A DNA stretch of 64,000 nt from Desulfosporosinus acididurans (GTDB taxonomy: Bacteria > Bacillota > Desulfitobacteriia > Desulfitobacteriales > Desulfitobacteriaceae): positions 310,001 through 374,000 of the forward strand of contig NZ_LDZY01000004.1 of assembly GCF_001029285.1 (NCBI RefSeq), read 5' to 3'. Under the pieces are notes generated by a model, which searched no databases, had not been told where the DNA came from, and saw nothing but the letters and a program-made list of their open reading frames with translations. Below are positions 3,097-48,280 of the stretch, piece by piece. The translations under genes and the position numbers were made by a program. Position 1 is the stretch's first letter; each line of letters opens with the position of its first letter.

Positions 3097-3846
3097 TTGA
3101 TTATCATGAAAACCCCGCAGCAAATTGAGCTGATGGCTCAAGCGGGTAAAATATTGACTGCCTGTCACAGGGAGCTCCGGGAGATTATTCGTCCGGGTAT
3201 AACTACTATGGAAATCGATCACTTTGCAGATCACTTTATTAATTCTCACGGGGCGAAGGCTGAGCAAAAGGGGTACAAGGGATATCCTTTCGCGACTTGT
3301 GCTTCGGTCAACGATGAAATTTGCCACGGGTTTCCAACTCAAACTCCTCTCCAGGAAGGCGATATTGTCACTATTGATATGGTAGTTAATCTCAATGGAT
3401 GGTTAGCTGATTCCGCATGGTCTTATCCGGTAGGGCAAATTTCCGAAAAAGCTGACAAGCTTCTTAATGTGACGAAAGAGTGCCTTTATATTGGAATAGA
3501 GAAAGCTGTTATTGGTAACCGGCTTGGTGATATTTCACACGCGATTCAAGCTCATGCCGAGTCTTATAGTTTTTCTGTAGTGCGTGATTTTACAGGGCAT
3601 GGTATAGGCCAAAAAATGCATGAAGATCCGCAAGTGCTCCATTACGGAAACCCCAACAGAGGCGTTAAGCTTTCAGAAGGGATGGTTTTCACCATCGAAC
3701 CGATGATTAATATTGGCGCCTATAATCTGACAATCGATGAAAACGGATGGACAGCACGGACAGCCGACGGTAGTTTATCGGCTCAGTATGAGCATACAAT
3801 TGCTATTACTAAAAACGGTCCTCTGGTTTTAACAGAACAGGATTAG
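3097..3846 (+). CDS. map: methionine aminopeptidase, type I
   Basis: This enzyme removes the N-terminal methionine from nascent proteins. The 249-aa length fits type I enzymes. The five metal ligands can be placed: two Asp in DIVTIDMVVNLNGWLADSAW, His in GHGIGQKMHE, Glu in FTIEPM, and Glu in QYEHTIAI. TTG 3097 is preferred over ATG 3106 because AGGAGG (3082-3087) lies 9 bases from the TTG but 18 from the ATG. It stands alone rather than in the ribosomal-protein operon where the housekeeping copy usually sits, so it may be a second copy. That cannot be tested in this window. Confidence 0.93.
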   Translation: MIIMKTPQQIELMAQAGKILTACHRELREIIRPGITTMEIDHFADHFINSHGAKAEQKGYKGYPFATCASVNDEICHGFPTQTPLQEGDIVTIDMVVNLNGWLADSAWSYPVGQISEKADKLLNVTKECLYIGIEKAVIGNRLGDISHAIQAHAESYSFSVVRDFTGHGIGQKMHEDPQVLHYGNPNRGVKLSEGMVFTIEPMINIGAYNLTIDENGWTARTADGSLSAQYEHTIAITKNGPLVLTEQD

Positions 3847-3890
3847 AAAACTGTTGCCAAATTGTCAATTATAACCAAGGTTTAAAGCTG

Positions 3891-3929
3891 CTTAGCAGCA
3901 GTCATACTTCTTTGTTTGCTGCTGCTAAG
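3891..3929. repeat. perfect 11-bp inverted repeat after map
   Basis: CTTAGCAGCAG (3891-3901) and CTGCTGCTAAG (3919-3929) are perfect complements with a 17-base loop. It lies 45 bases after the map stop codon. No T-run follows, so it may be an mRNA-stabilising hairpin or a weak or processed terminator. Confidence 0.45.
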
Positions 3930-4047
3930 TATCGAATGTTTAACAGGTATTTCTGATGATTATATAGCAGAAGGTAGAGTAGTTGTTGATCTTTTGAGAG
4001 TAAGTAGGGATGGAACAGATAATTCATTTTGAAAGAAGAGTGACAAA

Positions 4048-4608
4048 ATGACTATCTACGTCGCATTATTGCGCGGTATTAACGTAGGTGGGAAAAATAG
4101 AATAAAGATGGCTGATTTGAAACTTACTTTTGAGAATATGGGCCTTAAAAAGATACAGACTTATATTCAAAGTGGGAATGTCTTATTTGAGTCTAATCAA
4201 GAAGAGAAACAGTTACGTCAGCTGATTGAAGACAAGCTTGAAGAGGAATTCGGTTTTTCTATTCCGGTTATTTTAAGAACGTCAATGGAATTAGAAGAGA
4301 TTATCAATAACTGTCCCTTCTCGGAGGAAGAAGCAAGGGAAGCTCAGTCGGCATCAAAGGCTGAGAGCCTTTATATCGGTTTACTAATTCAGCCTCCTTC
4401 GGAAGAAGGAATCCAGCAATTGAATGATTATAAAAGCCAAACTGATCAATTCAAGATTATTGGCCGAGATGTTTATCTTCTGTTTTATAATAGTATTCGT
4501 AACTCTAAGCTTGCTAATAATCTATATAAACTTAATGTCTTGACTACTACACGGAACTGGAAAACGATTTCTAAACTTGCCCAATTGGCAAAGTTAATTG
4601 AGCGTTAA
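4048..4608 (+). CDS. DUF1697 family protein
   Basis: The 186-aa product opens with YVALLRGINVGGKNRIKMADL, the hallmark of DUF1697 proteins, followed by TYIQSGNVLFES and a C-terminal TTRNWKTI segment, all in the family order. The family is widespread in bacteria, cytoplasmic and of unknown function. ATG 4048 follows a GA-rich site (GAAAGAAGAG). It appears to stand alone, with 200 bases before it and 100 before the MarR promoter. No catalytic residues can be named. Confidence 0.85.
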   Translation: MTIYVALLRGINVGGKNRIKMADLKLTFENMGLKKIQTYIQSGNVLFESNQEEKQLRQLIEDKLEEEFGFSIPVILRTSMELEEIINNCPFSEEEAREAQSASKAESLYIGLLIQPPSEEGIQQLNDYKSQTDQFKIIGRDVYLLFYNSIRNSKLANNLYKLNVLTTTRNWKTISKLAQLAKLIER

Positions 4609-4676
4609 GGCATTATACTAATTAAAATTCCACCGGAAGTATTGGAATGAATAATAAGCATTAATTTTGCAGTTCC

Positions 4677-4705
4677 TTGACATTAGTTTGATATCAAACT
4701 ATAAT
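4677..4705 (+). promoter_or_regulatory. consensus promoter with an 18-bp palindromic operator in its spacer
   Basis: TTGACA (4677-4682) and TATAAT (4700-4705) have an exact 17-bp spacer. The palindrome TAGTTTGATATCAAACTA (4684-4701) fills the spacer and overlaps the -10 box. An identical palindrome lies before the next gene (5150-5167). This is the expected layout for MarR autorepression. Transcription should start near 4712, almost exactly at the chosen ATG. Confidence 0.85.
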
Positions 4706-4711
4706 ATGCGT

Positions 4712-5134
4712 ATGAATACAAACGATGTTGTATCCTTAATCTCCAAGATCAGGGAAAAGGCAAACAGGTTTATTGTATCAGAGATGACAAAATATGGGGT
4801 TGAAGGTATCGTAACTTCACATGGTGATATCATCAATGCCCTATTTAAGAACCCTAGATTAACTATGGCGGAGATTGCGGGGAAGATTGGCAGGGACAAG
4901 TCTACAGTTACGACACTTGTTGATAAGCTGGTCAGATTTGGCTATGTGACAAAAGAAAGAGACACAGTAGATACAAGGGTTGTTTATGTGACTTTAACAT
5001 CAAAAGGGAGTGAATTGAAACCCATATTCAATGCAATATCAAGGGAGGTATTAAACACCTTATATTTTGACATTTCAGAAAATGAAAAGGAGGAGCTAGT
5101 AAGAATTTTGAACAAAATTCATAAGAACTTATAA
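4712..5134 (+). CDS. MarR family transcriptional regulator
   Basis: A 140-aa winged-helix repressor. The recognition region AEIAGKIGRDKSTVTTLVDK (about residues 52-71) is followed by the wing GYVTKERDTVDTRVVYVTLT, both typical of MarR. It likely represses itself and the hydrolase gene behind it through the shared 18-bp palindrome, and may be released by a small ligand; the ligand is unknown. The start is unusual. In-frame ATGs are at 4706 and 4712, neither has a Shine-Dalgarno site, and the promoter predicts transcription starting at about 4712, so the mRNA is probably leaderless. An upstream start at 4667 would lie before the promoter and is rejected. Confidence 0.85.
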   Translation: MNTNDVVSLISKIREKANRFIVSEMTKYGVEGIVTSHGDIINALFKNPRLTMAEIAGKIGRDKSTVTTLVDKLVRFGYVTKERDTVDTRVVYVTLTSKGSELKPIFNAISREVLNTLYFDISENEKEELVRILNKIHKNL

Positions 5135-5149
5135 ATTTTTTTAAGAAAA

Positions 5150-5167
5150 TAGTTTGATATCAAACTA
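5150..5167. promoter_or_regulatory. second copy of the MarR palindrome
   Basis: TAGTTTGATATCAAACTA is identical to 4684-4701. It lies between the MarR stop codon and the hydrolase ribosome binding site, so the regulator probably also blocks transcription into the downstream gene. Confidence 0.8.
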
Positions 5168-5181
5168 AAATGGAGTGATGA

Positions 5182-6003
5182 ATGATGGTAGATTTTATTA
5201 AAACATTACCTAATCATAGCGAAAAATATGTTGGAGAAAATGACTTATTCTTAGAGATTTATGAAGGTGAAGCACTTTCATTTACTACAAAAAGGCCCCC
5301 TCTACTTTTTGTTCATGGTGCATACACCGGAAGCTGGATGTGGAGCAAATTCATTCCGCATTTTGTTAAAGAAGGGTGGAAATGTTATATGATGAACATG
5401 AGGAGTCACTATAAGAGCAGGGTGTTGGATTTGACGAAGGTAACCTACAGGGATTATATGGATGATATTAAAGAGATAACTGCTCAATGTGCCGAACCTC
5501 CAATAATCATTGGATTCAGCATGGGAGGAATCCTTTGTCAAAAGTTAGCCGAAACAATAACCTTTGCCGGTTTAGTGTTAATAGATACAAGCATAAGTAA
5601 AGAAGTCTATGAAATAGCACCCTACACAGAACCGCTCAGTATTATATCGGAAATTGTTGAACCTGCCCCAGCCCGTGAAGAGTATTTTAGTATTGATGAG
5701 TCAGCTGATGACATTGCTTTTCAAAAGAAATATTTGGCGATGGAATCCTCAAAGGCGAGAAATGCTATATTTCCTTTCACTGCGAATGGAGGAATTTCGA
5801 TAAACGGCAGTTTGATTACTTGCCCCAGCCTTGTGATTAAAGCAGTGAATAGTGATGATGATGAGAAAAGAGGCAGGGCGACTGCTGAGCAGATCAAGGC
5901 CGAGTATACAGGCCTTTGTAATAAAACTCACACAGGCTTATTAATCGGGCAAAGGTATATGGAGACAGTCGATAGAATTCTGGACTGGCTAAAAAGGTTT
6001 TAA
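5182..6003 (+). CDS. alpha/beta hydrolase under MarR control
   Basis: A 273-aa cytoplasmic alpha/beta-fold hydrolase. It shows the oxyanion motif FVHGAYTGSWMW near residue 43, the nucleophile elbow IIGFSMGG (Ser near residue 113), a candidate catalytic Asp in AVNSDDDEK and a candidate His in NKTHTGLL near the C-terminus. The substrate cannot be read from sequence; esters, lactones or a toxic xenobiotic are possible given the MarR link. GGAG (5172-5175) lies 6 bases before ATG 5182. A second hydrolase follows after 16 bases, suggesting a small operon. Confidence 0.85.
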   Translation: MMVDFIKTLPNHSEKYVGENDLFLEIYEGEALSFTTKRPPLLFVHGAYTGSWMWSKFIPHFVKEGWKCYMMNMRSHYKSRVLDLTKVTYRDYMDDIKEITAQCAEPPIIIGFSMGGILCQKLAETITFAGLVLIDTSISKEVYEIAPYTEPLSIISEIVEPAPAREEYFSIDESADDIAFQKKYLAMESSKARNAIFPFTANGGISINGSLITCPSLVIKAVNSDDDEKRGRATAEQIKAEYTGLCNKTHTGLLIGQRYMETVDRILDWLKRF

Positions 6004-6019
6004 GAAAGGTGGTCAAGAA

Positions 6020-6691
6020 ATGTTCACCGAACGACAAACAATTCAATACAACGGAATTAACATTCCTAGTATCATAAATATTCCCTCCAATCCCTCCGGT
6101 GCAGCAGTAATTGTTCACGGTTATGGCGGATGTAAGGAGGAACAATTAGGACTTGCCTGGCGAGCTGCAGAACTAGGGTTAGTAACTTGTGCTATTGATC
6201 TGCATGGACATGGAGAGAATGTGCTCAATTTAGAGCAGGGAATTTTTTTGGATGTAGAAGCAGCAGTCGATCATTGCCGTCGCTTTGGAAAAGTGGCCGC
6301 TATCGGGCATTCCTTAGGCGGTCGTCTATCCCTATTAAGCAGGGCAGATTTTGCGATTGGAATTTCACCGGCGCTTAGTCAAGACTATAGTGAAACAACT
6401 CGAAAAGTACTCAAAGATTTAAGGAATTATAGAGTACGGTTGGATTCTCCTGAAAAGGTCTTTGATATTCTGAAAGGGCTTCCTGTATGGGAACCAAACA
6501 GTAGACAGCGATCGTCAATAATTTTTGGCTCACGGGATGTTCCTGAGATCAGGGAAGCATGCCAGGAATTATCTCATACAGATACGAAACTTAACTATAT
6601 TGAAGGTGCATTACATAGTGATATATTTTTTATGGAAGCTACAATCATAACTGTAATTAATCAATTAAGAGAGTGGTTTTGTTTACAGTGA
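6020..6691 (+). CDS. alpha/beta hydrolase
   Basis: A 223-aa alpha/beta hydrolase with the oxyanion motif VIVHGYGGCKEEQ, an IDLHGHGEN loop, the nucleophile elbow AIGHSLGG (Ser near residue 96) and a C-terminal GALHSDIFF His. It resembles small serine aminopeptidase-like or dienelactone-hydrolase-like enzymes; the substrate is unknown. AAGGTGG ends just before ATG 6020. It lies 16 bases after the previous hydrolase and is probably in the same MarR-controlled unit. The two hydrolases differ in sequence, so they are not a recent duplication. Confidence 0.8.
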   Translation: MFTERQTIQYNGINIPSIINIPSNPSGAAVIVHGYGGCKEEQLGLAWRAAELGLVTCAIDLHGHGENVLNLEQGIFLDVEAAVDHCRRFGKVAAIGHSLGGRLSLLSRADFAIGISPALSQDYSETTRKVLKDLRNYRVRLDSPEKVFDILKGLPVWEPNSRQRSSIIFGSRDVPEIREACQELSHTDTKLNYIEGALHSDIFFMEATIITVINQLREWFCLQ

Positions 6692-6853
6692 ATTGTCAAT
6701 CGGATACTATAAATTAGGGATTGTTATACTGTTAATTACCAGCAACAAGTAGTAAAATTGTTTTTAGCTGCGAGGGCCCTTGAGTATGAAGCAATATTAG
6801 ACAGCGGAGCTTTGCTTTGAAGTATCAGTGCCATGGAGTTAGGAGATTGAAGG

Positions 6854-7573
6854 ATGTTCTTGAGAAAATTAACGTTCTTAAATGATCGAATATCAGATGA
6901 CAAGACATATCCATTTTCCATACCTGCACTTAGAGGATTAGAATCTATTGATTTTAAAAGCAATGTGACGTTTTTTGTTGGTGAGAATGGTACGGGCAAA
7001 TCGACGTTAATGGAAGCCATCGCTTATAAATGTGAATTTAACACAGCTGGGGGAGGCAGAAATAACGTTTATGAGATGGCGGCTTCGGAAACGGCCTTAG
7101 GCGACTTTATCAGACTTTCCTGGGCACCGAAAATCGCAAATGGTTTTTTTCTCAGAGCGGAAAGTTTGTATAATTTTGCCTCACATATTGATAGTCTCGG
7201 TCCAGAGGCATATGAACCTTACGGAGGCAAATCTCTCCACGCCCAATCACACGGGGAGTCATTCCTGTCTGTATTTTCTAATAGGTTTGGTAAAAGAGGT
7301 ATATATTTATTGGATGAACCTGAGGCGGCTCTTTCCCCGATTCGTCAATTGAGTTTTTTGAGTATCATCAAAGAATTAGAACGAGACGGCCAATCGCAGT
7401 TTATAATTGCTACCCATTCTCCAATAATCTTAGCTTACCCGGGAGCACAAATTCTCGATTTCGACACCTCACCGATCACCGAGACAGACTATGAAAATAC
7501 GTCTCATTATCAAATAACGAAAGGTTTTATGACTAATCGAGAACTTTATCTCCGGAAACTATTCGAGGAATAG
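6854..7573 (+). CDS. predicted AAA family ATPase (SMC/ABC-like)
   Basis: A 239-aa stand-alone ATPase of the COG3910-like type. It has Walker A GENGTGKST (near residue 41), an AQSHGESFL signature-like segment, Walker B YLLDEPEAALSP and the H-loop IIATHSPIIL. There is no membrane or DNA-binding domain. Proteins of this type are common orphan ATPases in bacteria, sometimes annotated as ABC-type transport ATPases without evidence. GGAGATTGAAGG lies before ATG 6854. No partner nuclease (such as an OLD/TOPRIM protein) is next to it, so a defence role is not supported by context. Confidence 0.82.
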   Translation: MFLRKLTFLNDRISDDKTYPFSIPALRGLESIDFKSNVTFFVGENGTGKSTLMEAIAYKCEFNTAGGGRNNVYEMAASETALGDFIRLSWAPKIANGFFLRAESLYNFASHIDSLGPEAYEPYGGKSLHAQSHGESFLSVFSNRFGKRGIYLLDEPEAALSPIRQLSFLSIIKELERDGQSQFIIATHSPIILAYPGAQILDFDTSPITETDYENTSHYQITKGFMTNRELYLRKLFEE

Positions 7574-7731
7574 AGAGTTGTGAATTCCACAACAAATCTA
7601 TCGCTGAAGGGGCGGATTCTACCATTACGATTGACTAAAAGCTTTAGTAAAGCCTAGCGTATTTCCGGATGTTAGCAATGGCGTTTATGAATATCCAACA
7701 TTTTTTGGTTTAGACGAGGGTTTTTGCTGTT

Positions 7732-7760
7732 GGACAGGCTGCCTGTCCTATTTTTCTTTC
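7732..7760 (+). terminator. intrinsic terminator
   Basis: GGACAGG (7732-7738) and CCTGTCC (7742-7748) form a perfect 7-bp stem with a 3-base loop, followed by TATTTTTCTTTC. It terminates the AAA ATPase transcript. Confidence 0.85.
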
Positions 7761-7834
7761 AGTAGGATGGGACATTTAATATGTAAGATTAAAGAAGCCT
7801 AAGAAACAAAAATAGAACTGGAGAGACGAGAAAG

Positions 7835-8905
7835 ATGAAAAAGCAACGTATTGATGGTGTTATCAGCAACATGAAAAAAGAGGGTATTACACAGATCATT
7901 GTGTCGTCGACAGCCTCCCTCTATTATTTGACAGGCTATTGGGTTGAGCCTCATGAACGTATGATTGCCCTATATCTGGATGATTCAGGCAAAGCTGTCC
8001 TGTTTGGCAATGAAATTTTTGGGCTGAAGAGCATGCCCGATTTACCTTTGGTTTGTCATACTGACAGCGATAATCCTGTCAGAGATCTTGCCAAAACAGT
8101 CAAACCGGGAAAATTGGGAATTGACAAGTTCTGGTACAGCAAGTTCTTAATCGGGTTAATGGAGCTGAGGAAGGATATTATGCCTGTTCACGGCTCCGCA
8201 CCTGTAGATCTGGCGAGAATGATGAAAGATGAACCTGAAATTGTGCTCATGCGTAATAATTCCCGCATCAATGATCAAGTTATGGGATCGATTATTTCTC
8301 TGCTCGACGATAGAGTGACAGAGAACTATCTTGCTTCGCAAGTAAATAAGTATTTTCTAAAAAATGGGGCGGATTGTGAAGGGACTCAAATCGTTTGTTT
8401 TGGCGCAAATGGTGCGGACCCCCACCATAATAGTGACAGTACGGTACTCCAAGCAGGCGACAGTGTGATTTTTGATATATTTACCCCTTTAAGCCACTAT
8501 TGGTGTGATATGACAAGGACGGTTTTTTATAAAACAGTTTCCGATCAGCAACGTCAGGTTTATGATCTTGTGAGACTTGCCAATGAAACTGCTATTTCCA
8601 GAATAAAGCCAGGAGTATTGCTCTCGGAAATCGATAAAACAGCGAGAGATATAATTATTAAGGGCGGTTATGGTAAGTACTTTACCCATCGTCTTGGTCA
8701 TGGAATCGGACTTGAATGTCACGAGCCTCCTGATGTAAGTCTTGCCTCAGAGATCCCCCTTGAGGTTGGGATGATTTTTTCCGTTGAACCGGGAATTTAC
8801 TTACCAGGGGAGTTTGGCGTTAGAATTGAAGACCTTGTGATGGTCACTAAGGACGGCTGTGAGGTTCTTAATCATTATCCCAAAGAACTGCAAGTAATCG
8901 GGTGA
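7835..8905 (+). CDS. M24 family Xaa-Pro dipeptidase/aminopeptidase
   Basis: A 356-aa creatinase/prolidase-fold metallopeptidase, predicted to release an N-terminal residue before proline from short peptides in the cytoplasm. The N-terminal creatinase-like domain spans about residues 1-125. The metal ligands are visible in the C-terminal domain: Asp in VIFDIFTP and CDMTRTV, His in HRLGHGIGLECHE, Glu in SVEPGIY and Glu in RIEDLVMV. ATG 7835 follows GGAGAG by 9 bases. It is flanked by a terminator upstream and a separate small gene downstream. Close to PepQ/YpdF types; the exact substrate length is uncertain. Confidence 0.9.
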   Translation: MKKQRIDGVISNMKKEGITQIIVSSTASLYYLTGYWVEPHERMIALYLDDSGKAVLFGNEIFGLKSMPDLPLVCHTDSDNPVRDLAKTVKPGKLGIDKFWYSKFLIGLMELRKDIMPVHGSAPVDLARMMKDEPEIVLMRNNSRINDQVMGSIISLLDDRVTENYLASQVNKYFLKNGADCEGTQIVCFGANGADPHHNSDSTVLQAGDSVIFDIFTPLSHYWCDMTRTVFYKTVSDQQRQVYDLVRLANETAISRIKPGVLLSEIDKTARDIIIKGGYGKYFTHRLGHGIGLECHEPPDVSLASEIPLEVGMIFSVEPGIYLPGEFGVRIEDLVMVTKDGCEVLNHYPKELQVIG

Positions 8906-25331: not shown

Positions 25332-25465
25332 CGAGTGGCGTTTTACATACAATAAGAATAATAATGTCATATTATCTGTAAGAATAAATAACTGGGCAGG
25401 ACTTTTACTAAATATCTAGAATAAGTAATAGGTTAATGTCTGAATGGAGAACAAGGAGCGATAAC

Positions 25466-26227
25466 ATGATGCCGCTAGAATTCAGTTTCGTGGAGAAGCT
25501 GAACTTGGTACAGGCGCGATTGCGCCAAGAAATTAATTTTAAACCTGCAAGTTTTGAAGAATTGGTTCATTTAGATATGAATGAATTGGATAAAACTGTT
25601 TGCCCGGCTATCGTCTTAGCAGTCAGCCGATCCTGCGGAGATCAAGGTGAAAAATCAGATGCCTTAGCAGAGATCATCCAGTTTATTTATATGGCGAATC
25701 AAGTTCACAAGTTGATGAAAGATGATAGTGATCTTGCTGAAGAACTTCGTCAGTTTCCGGTCTTGGTTGGGGATTTATTATATGGGGAGTTTTTTTTGCA
25801 TCTTTGTCAAGAAAAGCTGCTGCAATTTCTTGCTCCCTTGGCTCAAGTGATTGGAACTATGAGTGAAGGCGGGATTTCTCGCTGGCTTTCGCGTGACAAG
25901 AAGCTATCAAAAGACGAATGGCTGAAAATTATTGAAAAGGAATGTGCGTCCCTGACAGCAAGCGCAGCCCGCTTAAGTGCTGAATTAGCCGCAGTTTCTC
26001 TTCCGCTGCAACAGCAGATTGAAGCTTTTGGTTTACAGTTGGGTATGGCTTGGGGAGCTTCAAAGCAGCACCTTGAAGAGCCTGTTATTCAGTCAATTCT
26101 TCAGAAGGCCAATGATATCCTTACAGAAATTTCCACGGGAACACAACTTCAATTGCAGCCTCTTCGTGAGCTTTATAATTTCATGGTTAAACAGTTATCG
26201 GCAAGAAGACCTCTCCCAGAGATTTAA
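25466..26227 (+). CDS. degenerate polyprenyl-synthase-like protein (HepS-like subunit)
   Basis: A 253-aa all-helical protein. The region FIYMANQVHKLMKDDSDL aligns with the first Asp-rich region of prenyl diphosphate synthases (…HDDVVD…) but lacks DDxxD, and GDLLYGEFFLHLCQEKLLQF matches the GDYLFAKAF element. No second DDxxD is present. Heterodimeric heptaprenyl diphosphate synthases pair such a non-catalytic subunit (HepS) with HepT, and hepT lies 5 kb on at 30581, so a HepS role is inferred. ATG 25466 with AAGGAG 7 bases before is preferred to ATG 25436. UbiA follows after 27 bases. Confidence 0.6.
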   Translation: MMPLEFSFVEKLNLVQARLRQEINFKPASFEELVHLDMNELDKTVCPAIVLAVSRSCGDQGEKSDALAEIIQFIYMANQVHKLMKDDSDLAEELRQFPVLVGDLLYGEFFLHLCQEKLLQFLAPLAQVIGTMSEGGISRWLSRDKKLSKDEWLKIIEKECASLTASAARLSAELAAVSLPLQQQIEAFGLQLGMAWGASKQHLEEPVIQSILQKANDILTEISTGTQLQLQPLRELYNFMVKQLSARRPLPEI

Positions 26228-30210: not shown

Positions 30211-30573
30211 ATGGGCTTTACAGAAATCCTCCTAATTATGGGTATTGCATTGATTTTGTTTGGGCCAGAGGACCTACCGGAAATTGCCCGAACAATCGGC
30301 AAAATAGTCTATGAGGTTCGCAAAGCGACTCAAGATGTTACCAAGGAAATTCAGAATACAATGGATACCCCCAGTAATACTTTGAATAAAGCGTTGAATT
30401 TCTCAGACTATAAACCTGGGGACAAATCACCTCAGGCACAACGTGAAAAGGAAAAAGAAAAGCCTGAAACTGATGAAGAATTGTTGACGTTTGAGGATGA
30501 AAATCCAGCAGATCCGCTAGCGGAACTGCCATCAGATATGGTATCTTATGAAGAAAAGGGTGCGAGCAGGTGA
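30211..30573 (+). CDS. tatA: TatA/TatB-type twin-arginine translocase subunit with long charged tail
   Basis: A 120-aa protein. GFTEILLIMGIALILFGPED is the membrane helix and hinge, followed by LPEIARTIGKIVYEVRKATQ, the amphipathic helix. The remaining ~70 residues are charged and disordered (KEKEKPETDEELLTFEDE). The tail is longer than in the second TatA at 44842, so it might act as TatB. ATG 30211 has AAAGGGGG about 7 bases upstream; the open frame extends further up without a better site. It overlaps nothing and lies 8 bases before the hepT start. Confidence 0.88.
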   Translation: MGFTEILLIMGIALILFGPEDLPEIARTIGKIVYEVRKATQDVTKEIQNTMDTPSNTLNKALNFSDYKPGDKSPQAQREKEKEKPETDEELLTFEDENPADPLAELPSDMVSYEEKGASR

Positions 30574-30580
30574 ATCGGTT

Positions 30581-31549
30581 TTGAAACAACTCTGGCTCTT
30601 TAATCAGATAAATTCAGATCTTCAGCGGGTTGAAAAGGAACTTACCAAATTTGTGGAGACGGACTATCCGATTCTTCAGGATTCCGGTATTCATTTGTTA
30701 ACTGCCGGAGGCAAACGATTACGTCCGGCTTTTACTCTCTTAGCCGGAAAATTTTATGCTTATTCTTTGGATAAGCTTATACCTGTGGCCATGGCTTTAG
30801 AGCTTATTCATATGGCTACCTTAGTCCATGACGATGTTGTGGATGCTTCCCTGACGAGAAGGAGCAGGCCAACGGTTAAAGCCAATTGGGGAAATATAGT
30901 TTCTGTGGAAACAGGGGACTATTTGCTGGCTAAAGCTTTAATTCTTATCTCGCAAATAAATCATCCCGAGGTTTCCCGCATTTTGGCCGAGGTAAGTGTG
31001 GAAATGTGCCAAGGTGAGATCCAACAGATTAAAGCTTCCTTTGATGTGGAGCAGAACTTAAAGCAGTACTATTTTCGGATCAAACGGAAAACAGCCTTGT
31101 TGATTTCCGCTTGCTGCAAGTTGGGGGCTCTTGTTTCTGAGGCTCCAAGACACCAGGTCTGGGCTTTAGGAGCTTACGGACATTCTCTGGGTATGGCCTT
31201 TCAAATTGTTGATGATGTGTTGGATATTACGGCTAAACCGTCAGAGTTTGGGAAACCGATTGGCGGAGATCTTCGCCAGGGAATAATGACCTTACCCATG
31301 ATTCTGGCCCTGCAATCATTTCCCAGCGGTTCGCCTCTTCATGAGTTGTTGAGGAAGGCTGATAAAACTGACGCTGAAGTCGCGGAAACAATTGAATTGA
31401 TTAAAGGGACAGGCGCAATTGATCAGTCCATGAGGATTGTCGATGCCTATATTAACAAAGCCAAAAAACACCTTCAAGATCTTCCGAAGGTTTCATCTCG
31501 CAAGGCTTTAGAAGATTTAGCCGAGTTCATTGCCATTCGTAAATTTTAA
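30581..31549 (+). CDS. hepT: polyprenyl (heptaprenyl-type) diphosphate synthase
   Basis: A 322-aa trans-prenyl diphosphate synthase that builds the menaquinone side chain from farnesyl or geranyl diphosphate and IPP. Both catalytic motifs are intact: TLVHDDVVDASLTRRSRPT near residue 85 and FQIVDDVLDIT near residue 210. TTG 30581 gives the family-like N-terminus KQLWLFNQINSDLQRVEKEL and has AGGTGA before it; ATG 30548 would overlap tatA by 26 bases. Probably active with the degenerate subunit at 25466. A terminator-like hairpin follows. Confidence 0.9.
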   Translation: MKQLWLFNQINSDLQRVEKELTKFVETDYPILQDSGIHLLTAGGKRLRPAFTLLAGKFYAYSLDKLIPVAMALELIHMATLVHDDVVDASLTRRSRPTVKANWGNIVSVETGDYLLAKALILISQINHPEVSRILAEVSVEMCQGEIQQIKASFDVEQNLKQYYFRIKRKTALLISACCKLGALVSEAPRHQVWALGAYGHSLGMAFQIVDDVLDITAKPSEFGKPIGGDLRQGIMTLPMILALQSFPSGSPLHELLRKADKTDAEVAETIELIKGTGAIDQSMRIVDAYINKAKKHLQDLPKVSSRKALEDLAEFIAIRKF

Positions 31550-45307: not shown

Positions 45308-45574
45308 TTACTGAAGGGGTTTGAATTTATCCTTTGCTTTTTGAACCTCTTGAGCTTCAGCGTCAGTCGCTGGATACCAGCCTTTTGAATTCATGATGTT
45401 GTAAAGATTTTCATGAATGTTATGCTCTTCATCGAGAATCGTCTTAAGGTTTTGTCTTAAATTGGCACAGGTAGATTCCGTGATGAAGGTATTTACAGTT
45501 GATGTAACATGTTTTTCACTTGTCAGCAGGTCAGTGATGATTTCTTGTTCTGACATTGTGGTCTGTGTGGCCAA
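45308..45574 (-). CDS. CotF-family spore coat protein
   Basis: An 88-aa helical protein of the CotF type: EQEIITDLLTSEKHVTSTVN, then ANLRQNLKTILDEEHNIHEN and LYNIMNSKGWYPATDAEAQE match the usual blocks. CotF-type proteins are components of the spore coat and are made late in sporulation. TTG at 45572-45574 follows GGGGTGATTTAA on the minus strand; ATG seven codons on is an alternative. A related short protein lies just upstream. Confidence 0.88.
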   Translation of the reverse strand: MATQTTMSEQEIITDLLTSEKHVTSTVNTFITESTCANLRQNLKTILDEEHNIHENLYNIMNSKGWYPATDAEAQEVQKAKDKFKPLQ

Positions 45575-45636: not shown

Positions 45637-45843
45637 TTATTGATGAGAATTTAGATAATTGAGCAGGGTATCATAGTGTTTACGATGCAGCTCAGAAATT
45701 GAAGATAGCTGCGAGCTGACTGCCGGGTCTTGAACGGTTTGGGATGCCTGAGCGAACTTGTGAACAAGCAATGCTTCAGCACCAAGTTGATCATTTAAAA
45801 TGGCCAGGTTTTTGGCTGTCAGTTCAGGTTTTGTTGTGTTCAT
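45637..45843 (-). CDS. short CotF-like / ferritin-like helical protein
   Basis: A 68-aa helical protein (LAILNDQLGAEALLVHKFAQ; SSISELHRKHYDTLLNYLNS) resembling the first half of CotF-like spore proteins. GAGGGGAGGTTGACT stands before the ATG at 45843, so the longer open frame to 46008 is rejected. It lies 62 bases upstream of the CotF gene on the same strand and is probably co-expressed in sporulation. Assignment to a family is by resemblance only. Confidence 0.65.
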   Translation of the reverse strand: MNTTKPELTAKNLAILNDQLGAEALLVHKFAQASQTVQDPAVSSQLSSISELHRKHYDTLLNYLNSHQ

Positions 45844-46025
45844 AGTCAACCTCCCCTCTGTCATAATGATTTTAGTATGCCCCTTCCCTTTAGGAATATG
45901 TTTTCTAAATATTGGACTGAGCAAAGTATCAAGGGGCAGCAGGCGGGAAGAAGGTTGAGAAAGGCAGATATTTGGCAAGACTATATCTGAAGTCAACACC
46001 TTAAACAAAACAAGGAGAACGAGGA

Positions 46026-47096
46026 ATGAGCATAGTCAAAAAAAGATCTGTCAATCGGGCAGCCTTAATTTATAATTTTGTAACAAAGGTTTTTCCCGTA
46101 GTTAAAGAAGAACTTATGACCTGGCTGCAGCGAGCCGAACTTATTCCTGATTCTCGTCTTTGCAGTCAGGCTCAGGAAAGTATTCGTCTCAAAGCGTTTC
46201 ACTGTCAAGGAGGCAGTATCTATGCCTTATATCCCGGTGCGAATCTGAGAGCGACAGTACGGTTTATAGTCGCTTATCAGACTATAAGCGACTATCTGGA
46301 TAATTTAGTAGATAGCTTAGATGTAGAGAATGAAATGGCCTTTGCCCAATTACATCTGGCTATGGAGGAAGCGTTGCTGCCAAAGTCCGATTTATCAGAT
46401 TATTACAGGTATTATCCTTATCAGGAGGATGGAGGGTATCTCGAGCAATTAGTCAGGACTTGTCAAGCAAGCCTAAAAGACTTGCCATCCTATGATCTCG
46501 TTCAAGAGACAGTTTTAGATTTGGCTCGGCTTTATTCAAAGCTGCAAACCTATAAACATTTAGCCGCCGCCCAACGAGAATCTGTCATGCTTCAATGGAT
46601 TGAGCCTTATACGAAACTGTATCCGGCAATTACCGCCTGGGAATTTGCGGCCGCAACAGGTTCAACCTTAGGAATTTTCTGTTTGTATGCGGCTTCTCAG
46701 GATCCTCACTTGCGGGAAGAGGACGTTACTGAAATTCATCAAGCTTACTTTCCGTGGATCTGCGGCTTGCATATTTTATTGGACTATTTCATCGATCTTC
46801 GTGAAGATCATGAAACCGGCCAGTTAAATTTTGTGGCTTATTATGCCGGTTCGGAGAGGGTAGCTGCTCGCCTGAAACTTTTTGTCAGAAAGTCCCTTGA
46901 ACAGGCAGCATCACTTCGGTTTGTAAAATTTGAACGAGCTGTCGTTCAAGGCCTTCTTGCGATGTACTTATCGGACGGCAAAAGTCAGGATCGGGAAATA
47001 CGCGTAATAACTAAACAATTGCTCAAGAGTAATGGTGTAGGTGTAAGGGTTCTTTTTTGGCTGTGTTGTCAGTTACGAAAGCATAAGCGTCTTTAA
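46026..47096 (+). CDS. DUF2600 large terpene synthase (YtpB-like)
   Basis: A 356-aa all-helical protein of the DUF2600 family, whose studied Bacillus member YtpB cyclises all-trans heptaprenyl diphosphate to tetraprenyl-beta-curcumene. The Asp-rich motif is QTISDYLDNLVDSLD near residue 90, and LHILLDYFIDLREDHETGQL near residue 247 is the second metal region. CAAGGAGAACGAGG precedes ATG 46026. The gene converges with a prenyl diphosphate synthase and their ends overlap by 4 bases. Product and role in spores are inferred from the family. Confidence 0.85.
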   Translation: MSIVKKRSVNRAALIYNFVTKVFPVVKEELMTWLQRAELIPDSRLCSQAQESIRLKAFHCQGGSIYALYPGANLRATVRFIVAYQTISDYLDNLVDSLDVENEMAFAQLHLAMEEALLPKSDLSDYYRYYPYQEDGGYLEQLVRTCQASLKDLPSYDLVQETVLDLARLYSKLQTYKHLAAAQRESVMLQWIEPYTKLYPAITAWEFAAATGSTLGIFCLYAASQDPHLREEDVTEIHQAYFPWICGLHILLDYFIDLREDHETGQLNFVAYYAGSERVAARLKLFVRKSLEQAASLRFVKFERAVVQGLLAMYLSDGKSQDREIRVITKQLLKSNGVGVRVLFWLCCQLRKHKRL

Positions 47097-48088
47097 GATG
47101 TTCGCAGCAAAATGGAGTCAGAGAGATTTATGAGCGCTGTTCGATACGGACTCGCAGGAATTTTGCCTAAACAGGCTTTTGCTTTGTCAATACACTGTGT
47201 AGCTGTGAGTTGGGCTTTCTCAAGAGAGCGGGAACTTATTAAGGCTTCATAGATACTATGGAGTCCTTGACAGTTAATTTTATGAGAGATCAAAATCTCC
47301 CGCAGCCAATTACCGTAAACCGGGTTATCCATAAGATAGATGAGGGGCAGTGTTATATTGCCATTAAGTAGATCGCTTCCCACAGGTTTACCTAAAGATT
47401 CCGTGCTGCCGCTCAGATCGAGAATATCATCAGTGATTTGATACGCATATCCAATGTTTAGTCCGAATTCGCGAAAGGCTTCGATTTCCTCGGCACCAGC
47501 ATCTGCTAATAGGGCACCTGATTGGCAGCAGGCAGCCAAAAGAATTCCTGTTTTTTGAGCGATTCGCTTAAAATATTGTTCCTTTTCAATAGTATCGGAG
47601 AATTGTGCTGCGGCTTGATTCACTTCTCCCGCACACATGGATTGAATTGCCTCGATAAAGAAGCGCATAGTTTTTAATAACTGTTCTGTAGAGAGTATAT
47701 TGAACGCTTCGGCAAAGAGGTAATCTCCCGTGAGAATGGCTGCATGGTCACCATAGATTGAATTTATTGTCGGTTTACCACGTCTTGTTTCAGATTTATC
47801 AATGATATCATCATGAATTAAAGAGGCCATGTGAATCATTTCGGCGGAAACTGAAGCTTTAATCATTAAAGAGTTGAGGGGGCCAAAACACATTCCACTG
47901 TAAAGCGTCAGTAAAGGACGTACTCGTTTACCGCCTGATTTTAATAAAGTAACACAAGTTTTTTGAATTAAACCATCAGCTTTATTAAGTATTTCATGGA
48001 GTTGATCCTCTACAAATAGCAATTCGGGAAATCTTAAAGAGTCTAACGTTGTCTTTTGGGAGTCATGCAATTGTTGTTGAATACTCAT
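47093..48088 (-). CDS. polyprenyl diphosphate synthase
   Basis: A 331-aa trans-prenyl diphosphate synthase. Both catalytic motifs are intact: ASLIHDDIIDKSETRRGKPT near residue 90 and YAYQITDDILDLSGS near residue 218. The chain length is not readable with certainty. It is a paralogue of hepT (30581) and lies tail-to-tail with the DUF2600 synthase, so it may supply that enzyme's long-chain substrate. The ATG at 48088 is preceded by a GA-rich site (AGAGGGCTGAGG). Confidence 0.9.
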   Translation of the reverse strand: MSIQQQLHDSQKTTLDSLRFPELLFVEDQLHEILNKADGLIQKTCVTLLKSGGKRVRPLLTLYSGMCFGPLNSLMIKASVSAEMIHMASLIHDDIIDKSETRRGKPTINSIYGDHAAILTGDYLFAEAFNILSTEQLLKTMRFFIEAIQSMCAGEVNQAAAQFSDTIEKEQYFKRIAQKTGILLAACCQSGALLADAGAEEIEAFREFGLNIGYAYQITDDILDLSGSTESLGKPVGSDLLNGNITLPLIYLMDNPVYGNWLREILISHKINCQGLHSIYEALISSRSLEKAQLTATQCIDKAKACLGKIPASPYRTALINLSDSILLRTS

Positions 48089-48280
48089 AGCATCAGCCTC
48101 AGCCCTCTATTTAAAATACAAACGCCTTTATATTATGCCTGAAAGGGCATTTTTGGATACTATAAATTCACGAGATATCTAAAACAAAAAAAGTGACTAA
48201 TTTTAAATTATGAGGGAAATCATAAATTGACGGTGATTTATGATTTTAACTTGAAATAAGGACGCTGAGGAGGTATAGCA

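Follow-up and report, generated by a model that had tools for sequence, protein, structure and literature searches.

A convergent pair of large terpene synthase and prenyl synthase genes in Desulfosporosinus acididurans and its relatives among Bacillota

The closest described counterpart of the locus reported here, a tail-to-tail pair of terpene synthase and prenyl synthase genes in Desulfosporosinus acididurans, is the sporulene pathway of Bacillus subtilis, which comprises HepS/HepT, YtpB and SqhC and whose HepST also serves menaquinone. Structures have been solved for tetraprenyl-beta-curcumene synthase (PDB 5yo8, 6loo and 6lop), which we take to be BalTS of Bacillus alcalophilus. In B. subtilis, ytpAB is expressed by sigma-M or, in sporulation, by sigma-E (PMC11708026), sporulene is described as a mother-cell product that likely resides in outer layers (PMC13123705), large terpenes of the spore affect germination, resistance and hydrophobicity (PMC13123705, PMC11708026), and a build-up of heptaprenyl diphosphate is held responsible for the sensitivity of ytpB mutants to bacitracin (PMC8144471). 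The pair analysed here lies in a stretch of 64,000 nucleotides (the window; contig NZ_LDZY01000004.1, positions 310,001 to 374,000) of a 4.64-Mb assembly of 47 contigs, and consists of a DUF2600 large terpene synthase (LTPS) and the long-chain prenyl synthase beside it (PS).

Both systems have a terpene synthase of the YtpB family that carries the two Asp-rich motifs, both have a long-chain prenyl synthase similar to HepT, and both are associated with spore-formers. They differ in that HepST is shared with menaquinone synthesis in B. subtilis, whereas the LTPS has its own adjacent and mostly convergent PS; in that strong HepS or squalene-hopene cyclase (SHC) matches are missing from the paired genomes tested; and in that sigma-M and sigma-E promoters are described for ytpAB, whereas putative forespore-type promoter motifs precede the genes of the pair. 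We regard the pair as a widely conserved, probably dedicated PS-LTPS module and as a probable new variant of the sesquarterpene pathway. Among the matches listed in a search of titles and abstract openings of the open-licence literature, we found no description of a clostridial LTPS-PS pair.

The two enzymes and their likely partnership

The LTPS gene (46026..47096, + strand, 356 amino acids) encodes a class IB enzyme of the YtpB type. Its product matches PF10776 (DUF2600) with 435 bits over model positions 1-328 of 328, far above the Pfam cut-off of 25 bits, and a full-length phmmer match to tetraprenyl-beta-curcumene synthase (PDB 5yo8; E 1.2e-78), together with the same two aspartate motifs, DYLDNLVD and DYFIDLRED, supports the YtpB-like identity that had been proposed from the sequence. 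These are the two motifs given for this class of large terpene synthases (PMC7839719). As searched, the two patterns are kept in 98 and 100 of 103 relatives, fragments included. The closest named relative, from Desulfosporosinus sp. FKB, is 91% identical (among the best 80 of at least 578 relatives). Likeness to the enzymes of PDB 5yo8, 6loo and 6lop covers the whole length and the motifs. A difference lies in gene context: around the LTPS genes of named Brevibacillus and Paenibacillus records, the flanks that were fetched contain no PS.

The PS gene (47093..48088, - strand, 331 amino acids) faces the LTPS gene, and its product matches PF00348 with 225 bits (cut-off 27 bits). The tail-to-tail order is evident from both open reading frames and both Pfam families, and the two ends do overlap by 4 bases (47093..47096), where TTAA provides a stop codon on both strands. 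The PS carries DDIID at residue 93 and DDILD at residue 220, with Ala and Ser at positions -5 and -4 before the former. Small residues at these positions mark long-chain prenyl synthases. Ala-Ser precedes the first Asp motif in all 59 paired PSs that we compared, and the IspA-like protein of D. acididurans has Tyr at -5. The best NCBIfam model for the PS is HepT and its best PDB chain is the HepT chain 9kp1 (E 1.1e-57), with which it has the stretch EMIHMASL before the first Asp motif in common. It differs from HepT in its place in the tree described below, away from the HepT-type PSs that these genomes also carry, and in that it probably functions without HepS.

A C35 product of the pair is plausible. 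Alternatively, the chain formed by the PS may be shorter or longer (C25, C30 or C40) and the LTPS product may be something other than a C35 sesquarterpene, a possibility that we rate somewhat below an even chance. Ala-Ser at -5 and -4 is compatible with several long-chain classes and does not separate C25, C30, C35 and C40; moreover, the PS scores 253 bits against the HepT equivalog TIGR02748, below the cut-off of 456.55 bits. However, HepT is still both the closest model and the closest chain, and the HepT-type protein of the menaquinone-type cluster in the window misses the same cut-off with 359 bits.

That second synthase (30548..31549, + strand) is surrounded by a UbiA gene (PF01040) and by genes that read as futalosine-type menaquinone and Tat genes. 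Altogether, D. acididurans has five PF00348 proteins: the PS, the HepT-type protein, a short protein in the window, and an IspA-like and a ComQ-like protein on contig 5. The short protein (25436..26227, + strand, 263 amino acids, weak PF00348 match) is a probable HepS-type small subunit for the HepT-type synthase, although PF07307 (HepS) matches nothing in the D. acididurans genome, this protein included. Its gene precedes the UbiA gene, and the short protein and the HepT-type synthase perhaps form a divergent two-subunit menaquinone prenyl synthase. The PS was placed in a tree with other LTPS-adjacent PSs, 59 in all from 32 families (the window PS, 49 of the 50 from the 74 loci described below and 9 from 29 further family loci; the L095 fragment was dropped for its length), and 21 other long-chain PSs, of which 20 came from 26 hand-chosen genomes, with IspA of D. 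acididurans as the outgroup. A single branch (support 92/95; present in 96% of 200 bootstrap trees) separates the window PS and the 58 other paired PSs from the rest. The genome's PF00348 set and this separation bear out the original prediction that the PS is a further full prenyl synthase and not the HepT of menaquinone synthesis; both are of the long-chain type.

Profile searches of 76 LTPS genomes address the question of partners. PF07307 exceeds 100 bits in six genomes and one more is over the Pfam cut-off (G318, 30.1 bits); all seven have no PS in the fetched stretch. PF13243 (SHC) exceeds 250 bits in three genomes, which likewise show no PS in the stretch that was fetched. Strong matches to HepS and SHC, the HepS and SqhC components of the Bacillus route, are accordingly missing from the paired genomes tested, and the PS is therefore probably dedicated to the LTPS. 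The economy of some genomes is in line with this: only two PF00348 proteins are found in 8 of the 26 hand-chosen genomes, and in G115, G124, G128, G162 and G417 the set consists of the paired PS and one IspA-sized protein, PF07307 hitting only the PS itself in G128 and G162, at less than 28 bits.

Spread and arrangement of the pair

DUF2600 proteins are encoded in 42 of the 45 family genomes, in 44 of 73 at the level of the order and in 144 of the 398 genomes sampled from the phylum. Within the family, 37 of the 42 carriers, D. acididurans included, have a convergent LTPS-PS pair (two with about 1 kb between the genes); the remaining five, one of which lies at a contig end, have no PS in the stretch that was fetched. 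From the 144 phylum carriers we fetched 60 loci, hand-spread over 47 families, and scored a PS as missing if there was none within at most about 4 kb of the LTPS; 31 were convergent, 10 tandem with the PS upstream and 19 had none. With 14 family and order loci added (74 loci, 49 families), the counts are 40 convergent, 10 tandem and 24 none. By family, 27 are convergent only, 1 is mixed, 5 are tandem and 16 have none, so that the pair recurs convergently in 28 of 49 families, the answer to the survey of the gene pair that had been proposed. The named set, formed by the best 80 of at least 578 LTPS relatives and partly drawn from the same genomes, contains 40 convergent, 7 tandem and 1 divergent loci and 32 with none. 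Convergent examples come from Desulfosporosinus, Fervidicola, Geosporobacter, a Ruminiclostridium, Pseudobacteroides, Dethiobacter and a Symbiobacterium, and tandem ones from Syntrophomonas and Gelria; for Brevibacillus, Paenibacillus, Sporomusa and Pelosinus, the flanks that we fetched contain no PS. One convergent pair, at L176, stands in a record titled Lutibacter sp. B2, its LTPS being 47% identical to that of the window. Since Lutibacter is a genus of Bacteroidota, the record may be misnamed or its assembly may be a mixture.

On the LTPS tree, the three states of arrangement need 12 changes, compared with 29.8 in shuffles, and convergent pairs lie on both sides of the midpoint root, which was placed for drawing only. 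Because of these few changes and the occurrence on both sides, the convergent arrangement is probably ancestral. The two proteins also seem to have a common history. In 24 genomes, tandem ones included (26 were tried, and two gave no SpoIVA by motif), LTPS and PS tree distances correlate with r 0.63, whereas the correlation with SpoIVA distances is 0.37 for LTPS and 0.31 for PS. The partial LTPS-PS correlation given SpoIVA is 0.585, a value reached in 0 of 2000 permutations, which fits co-inheritance or co-evolution as a unit. It might still be argued that nothing but co-transfer or chance persistence keeps the two genes together and that their functions are not linked, since an LTPS gene often has no PS in the fetched stretch (24 of 74 loci). 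We consider this very improbable, given that a single PS group spans 32 families, that the flanks are scrambled and that the distance correlation exceeds that with SpoIVA. As to the flanks, in 48 loci from 32 families with adjacent LTPS and PS, no cluster of outer neighbours recurs in more than two families. A conserved third neighbour was accordingly rejected; the third-largest cluster, ABC-ATPase-like, looks generic.

The 4-bp overlap itself is trivial, whereas the pairing of LTPS and PS is not. Gaps of -10 to +15 bp separate 24 of 38 convergent LTPS-PS pairs and only 9 of 79 other convergent pairs of the same loci (odds ratio 13, p 1.6e-8). In the window, the closest terminator-like site found by a terminator scan is more than 450 bp away from the stops. 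These short distances leave little room for a terminator, and it is tempting to ask whether the tail-to-tail order is kept as a regulatory device with excludon-like overlapping transcripts. Convergent genes with overlapping 3' ends and no terminator are recognised as a form of overlapping transcription, alongside excludons or noncontiguous operons such as the men genes of Staphylococcus aureus (PMC7154746), to which the opposed genes, the single pathway and the possible transcript overlap of our pair are similar. The difference from the excludon as described there (PMC7154746) is that the LTPS-PS overlap is not conserved. Among 26 of the 28 carriers of the genus, 7 have the -4 overlap, 3 have gaps of 10-35 bp, and 16 have gaps of 65-127 bp that hold a hairpin. 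In addition, 10 of the 74 loci are tandem instead of convergent, and in 7 of the 40 named convergent loci 0.6-2.4 kb of DNA separate the two genes. A regulatory cause of the arrangement therefore appears unlikely to us. Antisense control through the overlap, as the original prediction had suggested, is weakened as a conserved reason by the hairpins in 16 of 26 genus loci; overlapping transcripts would be possible in the window lineage but are probably not a shared trait.

The 16 hairpins between the stops are long, roughly symmetrical and similar to bidirectional terminators (they were folded without a shuffle control). Their inverted repeats, found among L012-L039, vary in sequence, several stems beginning with GGGATC or GGGACC, and are possibly a common type of bidirectional terminator or a repeat element. 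At L056, L171, L174, L175, L178, L222 and L223 the genes lie about 0.6-2.4 kb apart and are still convergent.

Sporulation, promoter motifs and a proposed role

Of the 144 genomes with an LTPS, 139 have SpoIVA, compared with 197 of the 254 that lack one (odds ratio 8, p 9e-8, uncorrected for shared ancestry), in agreement with the spore-former context that had been assumed for the pair. Aligned upstream regions of the genus revealed two conserved sites, one before each gene. We compared the upstream regions with consensuses based on B. subtilis, which are GHATR-N18-CATWHTA for sigma-G and GYWTA-N15-GGNRANAMT for sigma-F. The PS of the window is preceded by a sigma-G-like motif, GTATC-N18-CATAATA (48131..48160, - strand), and the LTPS by a sigma-F-like motif, GTTGA-N15-GGCAAGACT (45954..45982, + strand), each with one mismatch. 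The two sites differ in exactly the manner that is described for the two types, with a G before the -10 element in sigma-F promoters and an A after it in sigma-G promoters (PMC3789822). Counting both strands, the whole window has 4 such one-mismatch sites for sigma-F and 12 for sigma-G.

Within the genus, a one-mismatch sigma-G-like site lies 65-78 bp before the PS start in 24 of 24 loci (shuffle mean 1.3), and a sigma-G-like site is found in all 26 loci with enough upstream sequence, one of the 28 carriers being cut too short and one having no PS in the stretch. The sigma-F-like site of the LTPS occurs with one mismatch in 10 of 25 genus loci (shuffle mean 0.8) and with two mismatches in 17 of 25 (shuffle mean 6.5). 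Other families provide an independent test. There, a one-mismatch sigma-G site precedes the PS in 11 of 40 loci (shuffle mean 1.5 of 41), compared with 14 of 187 intergenic control sequences of these loci (p 0.001) and, when every type of control is counted, 16 of 305 (p 4.4e-5). For sigma-F before the PS the figures are 5 of 40 against 5 of 187 intergenic controls (p 0.017), and for two-mismatch sigma-F sites before the LTPS 18 of 60 (p 0.1 against intergenic and 0.029 against all controls). Because more than 60 comparisons were made in all, only the sigma-G enrichment before the PS against all controls survives strict correction. Promoter patterns of sigma-A, E, H and K gave no enrichment. 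The hypothesis that the pair is expressed in the forespore is moderately supported.

As a whole, we think it likely that the pair is a self-contained, forespore-expressed large-terpene module. From sequence we infer the enzyme activities, the chain length, the expression and the location of the product in the following way. Starting from a short prenyl diphosphate, the PS would build a long all-trans one, most likely of about C35, and would do so without a canonical HepS subunit; the LTPS would then ionise the long diphosphate and release a linear or monocyclic large terpene. The module would be old in Bacillota and usually arranged tail to tail. In Desulfosporosinus both genes would be expressed in the forespore. 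A sigma-G-type promoter would serve the PS and, in some members of the genus including the window lineage, one of the sigma-F type would serve the LTPS. The terpene would accordingly arise within the developing spore, where it might act as a spore membrane lipid. Expression of the LTPS before the PS would avoid a build-up of free polyprenyl diphosphate, a safeguard suggested by the cause to which the bacitracin sensitivity of ytpB mutants is ascribed.

A number of observations speak against such a module. Five of the 144 DUF2600 carriers show no SpoIVA, 24 of the 74 loci are without a PS in the fetched stretch, and 15 of 25 genus LTPS loci are without a one-mismatch sigma-F site. Upstream regions of the LTPS in other families are not significantly enriched compared with intergenic controls, one-mismatch sites being present in 3 of 60 for sigma-F (p 0.3) and in 0 of 60 for sigma-G. 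The consensuses are based on B. subtilis, and the genes for small acid-soluble spore proteins of D. acididurans, an equivocal yardstick for sigma-G, match them only imperfectly, with two mismatches or odd spacing, and one gene does not match at all. Some match to PF13243 over the cut-off is found in 20 of the 76 LTPS genomes, the 17 weaker ones, D. acididurans among them, reaching 53 bits or less, and the HepS-like protein of D. acididurans could pair with the PS. Finally, in 17 of 23 genus loci a sigma-K pattern with a single mismatch fits the same -10 element before the PS. The last point leads to a different explanation, namely that the module is active during vegetative growth under envelope stress, or in the mother cell, the motifs being coincidental or sigma-K sites. 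It has a precedent in B. subtilis, where sigma-M and sigma-E control of ytpB and synthesis of sporulene in the mother cell are described (PMC11708026, PMC13123705), and a gene for a Coat F spore-coat protein (45308..45574, - strand; PF07875, 84.9 bits) adjoins the pair. However, sigma-G sites are enriched upstream of the PS in other families, whereas those of sigma-E and sigma-K are not, and the -35 element GTAT and its distance from the -10 element of the PS are conserved across the genus. We consider this explanation rather doubtful and favour expression in the forespore.

If so, it is tempting to speculate further that anaerobic spore-formers throughout Bacillota have kept an ancestral forespore module, in which a sigma-F-controlled LTPS and a sigma-G-controlled single-subunit PS stand tail to tail and provide a large terpene of the inner membrane, the HepST/SqhC route of Bacillus, which is described for the mother cell, being a later rewiring; we offer this as a tentative idea that has the odds against it. 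What is new here is the forespore-type sigma-G-like site before the PS, the sigma-F-like site before part of the LTPSs and the association with SpoIVA. If the proposed role is correct, many anaerobic spore-formers would make such lipids with a dedicated pair, perhaps in another compartment than B. subtilis, which would help to understand why permeability and lipid mobility are low in the inner membrane of spores and, by our own extension, would bear on the sources of C35 lipids in sediments. It would also mean that functionally linked genes are held tail to tail, and not in an operon, over much of the phylum, the cause of which becomes testable.

Other genes in the window and genome

Divergent from the LTPS gene is a small gene (45637-46008, - strand) without a match in the Pfam scan. 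Its product reads like a coat-associated helical protein, and a one-mismatch sigma-G-like site lies upstream of its likely inner start.

On contig 7, a gene at positions 6529-8274 (+) of locus L118 would encode a divergent class II terpene-cyclase-like protein, whose DLDDT aligns to DVDDT of SHC and which accounts for the weak PF13243 match of D. acididurans; the next gene reads like one for a UbiB/ABC1-type kinase. Close relatives occur in 11 of the 398 phylum genomes, D. acididurans included, and DXDD is kept in 9 of the 9 sequences that could be extracted from the 11 loci. A squalene-hopene-type protein as a fixed third member of the module was rejected, as six of the relatives are in genomes with an LTPS and five in genomes without one. 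Upstream of this gene the sigma-K pattern is found in 2 of 6 loci, the other hits, in the same two loci, being weakly sigma-F-like.

The ComQ-like PF00348 protein of contig 5 belongs to what may be a ComQXP-like locus (L119, positions 3161-6692, - strand; about 237160-240691 of the contig), our reading of its parts as ComQ, ComX and ComP being tentative. The ComQ-like gene occupies positions 5532-6497, a gene for a large membrane protein similar to histidine kinases lies at 3161-5551, and just upstream of the ComQ-like gene there is an open reading frame of 62 amino acids (6504-6692) with the C-terminus LHFWG.
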